Of a stretch of DNA of 23,962 bases, positions 18,488-22,668 are shown in pieces; the stretch's first letter is position 1, and every line of letters starts with the position of its first letter. The DNA is from a virus. The notes below the pieces were generated by a model. It worked only from the letters and a program-made list of their open reading frames with translations. It did not search any database and was not told the DNA's origin. The DNA is taken from IMG/VR virus record IMGVR_UViG_3300043418_000137, positions 1-23,962 of that record; one strand, given 5' to 3'. The position numbers were made by a program, and so were the translations under genes.

Positions 18488-18495
18488 TATATTTG
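18462..18495 (+). promoter_or_regulatory. Possible promoter for the two-hairpin small RNA
   Basis: TATATTTG (18488-18495) matches TAnnTTTG exactly; a TTG at 18462-18464 lies 23 bases upstream, at the edge of the usual 17-23 spacing. It ends about five bases before the first hairpin, which fits a start near 18500. Confidence 0.5.
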
Positions 18496-18499
18496 TGAA

Positions 18500-18591
18500 C
18501 AATAAGCGACGGGGGTAGGAGTTCGTCGGTTATTTTAGGGTTAAAAAACCAAAAAGCCAGCTTTGCACTCCTACGCAAACTGGCTTTTTTT
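18500..18591 (+). ncRNA. Candidate two-hairpin small RNA with complementary (kissing) loops
   Basis: Hairpin 1 pairs 18501-18511 with 18524-18534 (10 pairs, one G-G mismatch) and has a 12-base loop holding GTAGGAGT (18515-18522). Hairpin 2 pairs 18551-18560 with 18580-18589, then 18562-18566 with 18575-18579, and its 8-base loop is ACTCCTAC (18567-18574). The two loop segments are perfect reverse complements. A T-tract (18585-18591) ends hairpin 2, and a TAnnTTTG box ends at 18495. The stretch of about 110 bases holds no gene. Together this looks like a short transcript with a kissing-loop or switching structure; its target and function are unknown. Confidence 0.6.
18551..18591 (+). terminator. 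Intrinsic terminator forming hairpin 2 of the small RNA
   Basis: A 15-pair stem with one bulged C, an 8-base loop and seven T (18585-18591). It separates the ERF operon from the replication genes. Confidence 0.85.
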
Positions 18592-18599
18592 GTTTAAAA

Positions 18600-18755
18600 A
18601 TGGAAAATAAAAACACAAAAGCGCCTAGAACAATTCTTTGTAATTGGTGCAATAAAAGAAGATTATTTTCAAACGGTTACTATTTAGGCAAAAGCCCCAT
18701 TGGAAAAGAATATTTCATTTGTTCTAAATGTAATTTAATTAAAGACATAGTTTAA
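18600..18755 (+). CDS. 51-residue zinc-ribbon protein
   Basis: ATG 18600 to TAA 18753. C14-x2-C17 and C41-x2-C44 form a two-knuckle zinc ribbon; between them are a basic Lys-Arg-Arg and a Gly/Tyr-rich loop. Small zinc ribbons often bind nucleic acid or polymerase, but nothing fixes the role here. It is more AT-rich than the ERF operon. It starts nine bases after the terminator T-tract, with the replication gene next. Confidence 0.65.
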   Translation: MENKNTKAPRTILCNWCNKRRLFSNGYYLGKSPIGKEYFICSKCNLIKDIV

Positions 18756-18757
18756 TT

Positions 18758-19471
18758 ATGAAATACTACCTACACGATTCGACTTCATTTAACGATGAAA
18801 AAATCACTGAATTATACCTAGAGTTTGGGTACGAAGGGCTTGGTTTATTTTATACAATTCTTGAAAAATTAGCCCTTCAAGAGAAACCAATTAAGACAAA
18901 AATCCTTAAACATCAACTAAATGTTGGCAAAAAATTAGAAAAATGTTGGGATTTTATGGAAAAAATTGAACTTATTTCTTCAATAAATGGCGAAACTTTC
19001 AACGAACAACTTTTAAATTTTAGTAAAAAGTATCAAGTCAACAAAGAGAAAAACGCGGATAAGGTTGCAGAATGGCGTAAAAGTAAAAAAAGTAACGAAG
19101 GTGTAACCGGTTACGAACCGGATTGTAACGCCCCTAAAGTAAATAAAGTAAAATCAATTAAAATAAAAGAAAGTAAATACTTTGAATTTTTTTGGGAGGC
19201 GTTTAATAAAAAAATAGATCGCGCTAAATGCGAAAACGCTTGGACTAAATTAACCGAAGAAGAAATTAAAAAAATTGTGGCAACCGTTGACCAATATGTT
19301 TTGGCAAACCCTGAAATCAAATTCAGGAAAAATCCTTTAACTTACCTAAACGGAAAATGCTTTAATGACGAAATAGTTTTTTACCCTAAACCCCAAAATA
19401 ATGGAAATTTCAACAACGAACAAAAACTCGGAACTAGCGCCGCAAGAATGGAAGCCGCGCGAAATTTCTAA
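18758..19471 (+). CDS. Replication protein with DUF4373 (Lin1244/Lin1753-like) N-terminal domain
   Basis: A 237-residue protein. Residues 1-105 start with Tyr-Tyr-Leu-His-Asp-Ser and include Tyr-Leu-Glu-Phe-Gly-Tyr-Glu-Gly-Leu-Gly-Leu-Phe-Tyr, the DUF4373 pattern of a winged-helix domain seen at the N-terminus of phage replication initiators. A Lys/Ser-rich linker (about 105-125) leads to a second helical part with Phe-Arg-Lys-Asn-Pro-Leu-Thr-Tyr-Leu-Asn, as in DnaD-like proteins. It probably binds the phage origin or loads a helicase. Its 3' end overlaps the next gene by 71 bases. Confidence 0.75.
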   Translation: MKYYLHDSTSFNDEKITELYLEFGYEGLGLFYTILEKLALQEKPIKTKILKHQLNVGKKLEKCWDFMEKIELISSINGETFNEQLLNFSKKYQVNKEKNADKVAEWRKSKKSNEGVTGYEPDCNAPKVNKVKSIKIKESKYFEFFWEAFNKKIDRAKCENAWTKLTEEEIKKIVATVDQYVLANPEIKFRKNPLTYLNGKCFNDEIVFYPKPQNNGNFNNEQKLGTSAARMEAARNF

Positions 19472-22219: not shown

Positions 22220-22563
22220 GAAACGACGAAGAACACCGTATTCAAGTAGCGATTTGTAATTACCTGAACTGGCAGAAAGTGCCATTTTATGCGGTGCCGA
22301 ATGGCGGCCAACGCTTGCTAGGCGTTGCAAAAAAGCTAAAAGCGGAAGGCCAAAAGGCTGGCGTTGCTGATTTGTGTTTAATGATTTATAATAAAACGTG
22401 GCACGGCTTGTATTTAGAAGTCAAAACCGAAAAAGGCCGATTATCGGAAAATCAAAAAGAATGGTTTCCGAAATGCGTTGAAGCTGGATATTTTTACCAT
22501 ATTGTCCGTTCGGTTGACGATGTGGTTAAAATACTGAAAGATTTTAAGGCAGATTTGATTTAG
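22216..22563 (+). CDS. VRR-NUC domain nuclease
   Basis: A 115-residue stand-alone VRR-NUC. The family's acidic core is clear: E6...Q10 in the first helix, Asn-Gly-Gly (29-31), Gly-Val-Ala-D52, E68-Val-K70 and the Asn-Gln (79-80) helix. VRR-NUC enzymes cut branched or flap DNA, in replication-repair or Holliday-type resolution. In phages they often sit in the replication region. The start overlaps the previous stop (ATGA). The stop TAG (22561-22563) overlaps the first bases of the tRNA-like gene. Confidence 0.86.
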   Translation: MRNDEEHRIQVAICNYLNWQKVPFYAVPNGGQRLLGVAKKLKAEGQKAGVADLCLMIYNKTWHGLYLEVKTEKGRLSENQKEWFPKCVEAGYFYHIVRSVDDVVKILKDFKADLI

Positions 22564-22668
22564 TCAGGTGGCGGAATTGGTAGACGCTAATATATCCATA
22601 GGTTAGAGGGTATAAACGAAAGGATAGAACGACCCTTCACCGTACAGGTTCGAATCCTGTCCTGACTA
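22562..22668 (+). tRNA. tRNA-Leu-like gene, oversized
   Basis: Acceptor stem AGTCAGG (22562-22568) pairs with CCTGACT (22661-22667). TG, then a D-arm of the Leu type (GCG...AATTGGTAGA...CGC), and a T-arm ACAGG-TTCGAAT-CCTGT (22644-22660) are all intact. The region between D and T arms is 56 bases, against about 40 in a normal long-variable-arm tRNA. It can fold as TATATCC/GGGTATA with a 10-base loop plus a long variable stem, but no normal 7-base anticodon loop is clear, so the amino acid is not certain. It starts inside the stop codon of the nuclease gene. Confidence 0.65.

Follow-up and report, generated by a model that had tools for sequence, protein, structure and literature searches.

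A ~95-nt RNA element with complementary, covarying hairpin loops directly upstream of phage DNA-replication genes

Why would two neighbouring hairpins, placed directly 5′ of phage DNA-replication genes, carry loops that are exact reverse complements of each other over 8 nt, and what could the pairing of such loops do at this site? The question arises from an RNA element of ~95 nt in the window analysed here (the whole stretch of DNA under study, a linear virus record of 23,962 bases). The initial annotation had described two hairpins with perfectly complementary 8-nt loops, the second doubling as a terminator, behind a TAnnTTTG box and in a gene-free region. The sequence and coordinates proved to be as described, and the layout of the locus is as follows.

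18488–18495, + strand: promoter box TATATTTG, −7 element of the Bacteroidota type (from sequence)
18501–18512, + strand: 5′ arm of hairpin 1 (predicted fold; family covariation)
18515–18522, + strand: kissing loop 1, GTAGGAGT, family consensus GU-NNN-AG (7-nt core pairs with loop 2)
18523–18534, + strand: 3′ arm of hairpin 1 (predicted fold; family covariation)
18539–18550, + strand: small linker hairpin, GGTT-aaaa-AACC (predicted fold; family covariation)
18551–18566, + strand: 5′ arm of hairpin 2, the terminator (family covariation)
18567–18574, + strand: kissing loop 2, ACTCCTAC, family core CU-NNN-AC (pairs with 18515–18522)
18575–18591, + strand: 3′ arm of hairpin 2 with the terminator U-run at 18585–18591 (from sequence; U-run in homologues)
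18600–18755, + strand: 51-aa ORF, rich in CxxC, the first gene 3′ of the RNA here (start 8 nt past the U-run)
18758–19471, + strand: replication initiation protein (Lin1244_N / DUF4373-like), which travels with the RNA family (profile matches)

Hairpin 1 is formed by 18501–18512 and 18523–18534 with one G·G mismatch and encloses a loop at 18513–18522, while in hairpin 2 (18551–18566 with 18575–18589) the complementary octamer makes up the entire loop. In the window the complementarity around the two loops ends after 8 nt on both sides. The predicted folding energy (−35.6 kcal/mol) is well below the shuffled mean of −22.7 (z = −4.4; 0/200 shuffles), and no ORF of at least 80 aa spans 18488–18599. 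A detector requiring the box, a hairpin and a terminator, with loops complementary over 7 nt or more, returned a single site in the window, the element at 18488–18591, against a background of 7 matches per 2,686 kb of Markov-simulated strand. The assignment of the downstream replication protein is based on matches to phrog_270 (E 8e-10) and to Pfam PF14297 (E 2e-4, below the Pfam cut-off). The mismatch in hairpin 1 (18506/18529; hairpin 1 columns 7 and 30 in alignments A1/A3) is retained as G·G or A·G in many family members and is possibly a protein-binding feature. Elsewhere in the window, Rfam gives a 107-nt tRNA match (22562–22668, 37.1 bits) where ARAGORN calls none; as the match exceeds the 71-position tRNA model, it is perhaps an unusual or interrupted tRNA-like gene.

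The initial annotation was aware of no described RNA family of such a form, in agreement with our searches. At gathering thresholds, Rfam 15 produced no match in the RNA regions of the window and seven relatives, and at E values up to 10 the best hit was a 31-bit scaRNA on the minus strand (threshold 113). No published description of such an RNA was found in the open literature searched.

The homologues were collected in steps. The first scan of IMG/VR used the pattern GTAGGAGT-N(25-54)-ACTCCTAC and retrieved at least 120 stretches, many of them chance matches; because both loops were fixed, it mixes the latter with true members. Among the matches listed, lengths cluster at 57–60 bases (60 in the window), and most matches of this length are homologues that differ in their stems and possess a terminator and a box resembling TATATTTG. 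The second scan was therefore performed with the stem of hairpin 2 fixed and its loop left free, and all statistics given below rest on the later scans only. It yielded 75 stretches with four types of loop 2, and loop 1 was the complement wherever it was present on the contig, double changes included. An unbiased set was then assembled from loci reached via the downstream replication proteins rather than via the RNA, followed by a covariance model search, which found the RNA in 55/79, 54/80 and 62/80 protein-anchored loci. A hundred such loci gave 92 distinct RNAs.

The loop–loop match is perfect over 7 nt in all 92 of these RNAs, as found with a covariance model for which the training loops were all matched and covered four of the seven types; quite different loops could escape it. 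The seven types of loop 1 are GUAGGAG (41 RNAs), GUGAGAG (20), GUCGGAG (11), GUGGUAG (11), GUCGCAG (6), GUCAGAG (2) and GUCGUAG (1). With the kissing helix entered as a pseudoknot, its 644 cells are Watson–Crick without exception, no pair being broken, and three positions covary, with 51, 22 and 18 double-change cells (cells count sequences rather than independent events). The covariation score is 0.613, compared with 0.176 after shuffling and at most 0.12 when the partners are slid. The stems covary as well: double changes occur in 11/11 pairs of hairpin 1, 4/4 pairs of the linker hairpin and 10/11 pairs of hairpin 2, with 96.7%, 86.6% and 95.3% of the cells paired, respectively. Homologues that keep the hairpins and lose the complementarity, which the initial annotation had named as a refutation, did not appear in this set, which had not been selected on loop pairing. 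On comparative grounds, these data show that the match between the loops is not due to chance and that the two loops pair. A simpler candidate, according to which loop 1 (AGGAG) mimics a Shine–Dalgarno sequence and loop 2 (CUCCU) an anti-Shine–Dalgarno sequence, was rejected because GUGAGAG, GUCGUAG and GUCGCAG lose the motif and keep the match.

The same alignment bears on the nucleic acid in which the pairing takes place. On the + strand the stems contain 103 GU pairs versus 22 A·C mismatches, an excess which indicates that selection acts on + strand RNA. A promoter box is present 11–19 nt 5′ of hairpin 1 in 81 of the 92 distinct homologues (2.7% in random 30-nt windows), a U-run follows hairpin 2 in the homologues inspected, and an ATG is found within about 10 nt of the end of the covariance model. 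The element could instead act at the DNA level, as origin hairpins or as a site of single-strand initiation or packaging that merely looks like RNA. Its position next to replication initiator genes would suit such a role, as would the near symmetry of the region, where the covariance model also weakly matches the minus strand; the GU excess and the fixed polarity of the promoter box and U-run speak against it, and we consider a DNA element very improbable. Comparison of the sequences thus shows, for the family, three helices and a kissing helix, with selection acting on the + strand RNA, and the order promoter–terminator–replication gene. The interpretation given in the initial annotation is supported by this comparison, from which we infer transcription, pairing in cis or in trans and an effect on termination. 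Four points described below had escaped the annotation: that the RNA lies 5′ of replication genes, that its loop types switch, that another family exists in which the loops are swapped, and that cultured phages have versions of their own.

The arrangement is not confined to one RNA family. Most loci of the second protein set that are devoid of the family 1 RNA carry a different, seemingly unrelated RNA at the same place. This family 2 RNA has the form AATCGC-CTCACTAC-ATTATA-GCGATT and then a terminator hairpin whose loop contains GTAGTGAG; the polarity of the family is reversed with respect to family 1, the pyrimidine-rich loop coming first. A scan with only its hairpin 1 fixed retrieved 37 stretches; inspection of 25 distinct sequences and their close variants revealed five loop types, and in all of them the terminator loop complements loop 1 over 7–8 nt. 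The family 2 loci include L276, L278, L292, L315 and L330, where the RNA lies directly 5′ of the replication gene. A third, rare form was found in L232 (about 2375–2480) and L233 (about 2376–2480), with the loops CAGCAC/GTGCTG and AACACAC/GTGTGTT compensated between both sequences. One more RNA-like stretch 5′ of a replication gene (L187, about 1900–2050) fits none of the three forms; neither this locus nor L050 was assigned to a family.

Cultured Flavobacterium phages (11b, lillamy, elemo, FCL-2), and Olleya phage Harreka_1 with them, carry further, unrelated versions of the same plan, all of them unannotated and beside replication genes. Elemo, 11b, the lillamy group and Harreka_1 were reached via the replication protein, and FCL-2 by a scan. 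The loops are TGAGAGC/GCTCTCA in elemo, CGGGCAGG/CCTGCCCG in phage 11b, GTGAGACG/CGTCTCAC in lillamy, tooticki, hemulen and others, GTGGTGG/CCACCAC in Olleya phage Harreka_1 and CATCCAC/GTGGATG in FCL-2. The elements of 11b, Harreka_1, lillamy9-1, elemoC and FCL-2 are located at L472 33621, L473 30070, L474 14098, L475 9712 (− strand) and L477 37475, respectively. Each carrier (whole or near-whole genomes) has one convincing element; lillamy and FCL-2 have one further, weaker and AT-rich match each, which is chance-like. According to PMC7077304, the lillamy-group carriers are virulent phages. The detector found no element in phi19:3 (first 50 kb) or in Bacteroides phage B124-14, and neither blastn with the RNA nor megablast with the whole window gave a match among cultured phages. 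In GTDB (84,980 bacterial and archaeal genomes) the pattern for the main loop types had 0 matches, and close relatives of the replication protein are absent from these genomes. One IMG/VR record, IMGVR_UViG_3300027969_000114 (L020, L172, L182, L270), contains two copies of the RNA; its 59,277 bases approximate the sum of two ~29.6-kb phage records from another sample (L027/L271, L092/L181), and it possibly represents two genomes joined.

What such an RNA may do is suggested by its genomic place. The distance from the end of the U-run to the next start codon is 8–12 nt in most of 96 distinct loci; since the terminator ends just before the start codon, any read-through transcript of that gene passes the RNA. 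The first downstream gene varies and is most often the replication initiator, which in the window is preceded by the 51-aa ORF. The neighbours of the element are recombination and replication genes, not packaging genes. In about 20 more distant replication-gene loci, the ~150 nt read upstream of the gene contain no element of this sort, and the element is therefore not essential to the replication-gene family.

We give about an even chance to the reading that the element is a terminator-coupled leader RNA controlling the replication operon, in which loop pairing sets termination. Transcription would start at hairpin 1 from the promoter, and the RNA would fold into hairpin 1, the small linker hairpin and hairpin 2 (an intrinsic terminator), with the loops of hairpin 1 and of the terminator forming a kissing helix of 7–8 bp. 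Most transcripts would end at hairpin 2 to give a stable RNA of ~95 nt, read-through would feed the replication genes, and loop pairing would set the frequency of termination at hairpin 2. With less confidence, the released RNA may also act in trans by pairing with nascent leaders that share its loop type; termination would then rise with phage copy number, against phages of the same type only, resulting in copy control or superinfection exclusion. Against control by a leader it can be argued that gene starts close 3′ of terminators are common in compact phage genomes and that the identity of the first gene downstream varies. A conserved antiterminator alternative to hairpin 2 was not seen; pairing of the 3′ arm of hairpin 1 with the start of hairpin 2 is partly possible in some sequences and, judged by eye, is not conserved across types.

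The presence of its own promoter and terminator, the size of about 95 nt and the variable downstream gene would also be expected of a stand-alone small RNA acting in trans, whose loops bind host or phage mRNAs and whose loop match masks or auto-regulates the RNA itself. Neither a third copy of the loop 7-mers nor a trans target elsewhere in the phage was suggested by the flanks, where these 7-mers show no enrichment (within up to 14 kb), and the presence of five to seven types of loop in each family implies the absence of a fixed host target. We therefore regard such a small RNA as improbable. That no third partner is apparent, that each genome has a single copy and that the same transcript contains both loops are all consistent with pairing either inside one RNA molecule or from copy to copy.

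The evolution of the loops bears on the choice between these two modes. Counted on FastTree phylogenies of the replication protein, which have many weak branches, the RNA type has switched at least 24 times among 80 proteins (both RNA families included) and at least 14 times among 48 proteins. Near-identical replication proteins go with different loop types (for example, the close neighbours L338, L341, L346 and L348 differ), and several types occur within the single sample 3300020043. Some switches are double point changes on one backbone (L293/L298; L344/L375) and others replace the whole RNA; recombination is likely.

A structure acting strictly in cis, in which the terminal hairpins kiss within one RNA either to compact a small RNA and protect it from nucleases or to improve the terminator, would make the identity of the loops irrelevant as long as they match. 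Such a structure accords with the invariable presence of both partners in one RNA and the unseen third partner, with the well-conserved stem and linker lengths, as ring closure would require, and with the swap of the purine-rich loop side between the two families, which implies that only the match matters. It leaves unexplained the frequent switching of loop type between near-identical phages, as well as 644 kissing cells without a G-U or one-sided state, unlike the stems, and we consider it rather unlikely. Strict Watson–Crick pairing together with frequent type switching favours a role in specificity, hence trans action between genomes. Pairing in cis should be favoured over trans by high local concentration, and rapid switching could stem from a recombination hotspot rather than from selection. 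A tentative extension, with somewhat more against it than for it, is that type-specific loop codes serve as self/non-self tags in Flavobacteriia phages, virulent ones included, and that several unrelated RNA families have converged on this use. The released RNA would terminate the nascent replication leader of a genome with the same code, and the codes would be under diversifying selection, like plasmid incompatibility types.

Several known systems share parts of this plan. The put RNA of phage HK022 consists of two hairpins immediately 3′ of an early phage promoter, which bind RNA polymerase and suppress later terminators, thereby influencing termination. The element is similar in having two hairpins directly 3′ of a promoter and a proposed role in termination; we know of no loop–loop match or built-in terminator in put. 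The packaging RNA of phi29 is a phage RNA with loop–loop contacts that join its copies into a ring. By analogy, the element, a small phage RNA with two hairpins whose loops are complementary and covary, could form rings or chains of copies; we find this extremely improbable for a site at replication rather than packaging genes and a 3′ hairpin that is a terminator. GOLLD and ROOL are likewise phage RNAs with loop–loop contacts; these three RNAs either exceed the element in size or are encoded close to packaging genes or tRNAs, whereas the element is about 95 nt long, ends in a terminator and lies 5′ of replication genes. Multimers with covarying contacts between copies have been described for GOLLD and ROOL (PMC12286853).

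The CI RNA of satellite phage P4 is a leader RNA of a replication operon in which short RNA–RNA pairing leads to premature termination (PMC4825925). The element, like this RNA (and the P4-like seqA RNA), is small and lies in the leader of an operon for phage replication. In P4 the processed RNA silences the prophage by pairing at seqA and at seqC, which are separate sites, whereas here both partners are loops of one RNA, one of them belonging to the terminator, no external sites of the seqA/seqC kind were found in the flanks, and several carriers are described as virulent (PMC7077304). In pT181 and ColE1, kissing hairpins control how a replication initiator or primer is expressed or used, and altered loops give rise to types that do not recognise one another (PMC3753616, PMC9458437). 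The element shares kissing loops and a proposed replication control with the pT181 attenuator and ColE1 RNAI/RNAII; these plasmids employ a second RNA, transcribed from the other strand and complementary over a long stretch, as opposed to 7–8 nt on the same strand and in the same transcript. The promoter box and U-run of our family are conserved on the + strand. Our reading is that the element resembles P4 CI RNA or pT181 attenuation and belongs to neither, being set apart by the external sites of the one and the long antisense complementarity of the other.

The elements described here form a widespread unannotated RNA class, in which covariation establishes the key tertiary contact, independently in at least two families. 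Their loop types are ready-made candidate orthogonal RNA switches for Bacteroidota, and the existence of cultured carriers makes the idea directly testable. The retention of the loop match in many Flavobacterium-type phages, with the paired letters changing in concert, is indicative of an RNA switch or a tag for self-recognition of a novel type. It suggests that phages regulate their replication, and perhaps the competition between phages in one cell, via loop codes of a few bases.
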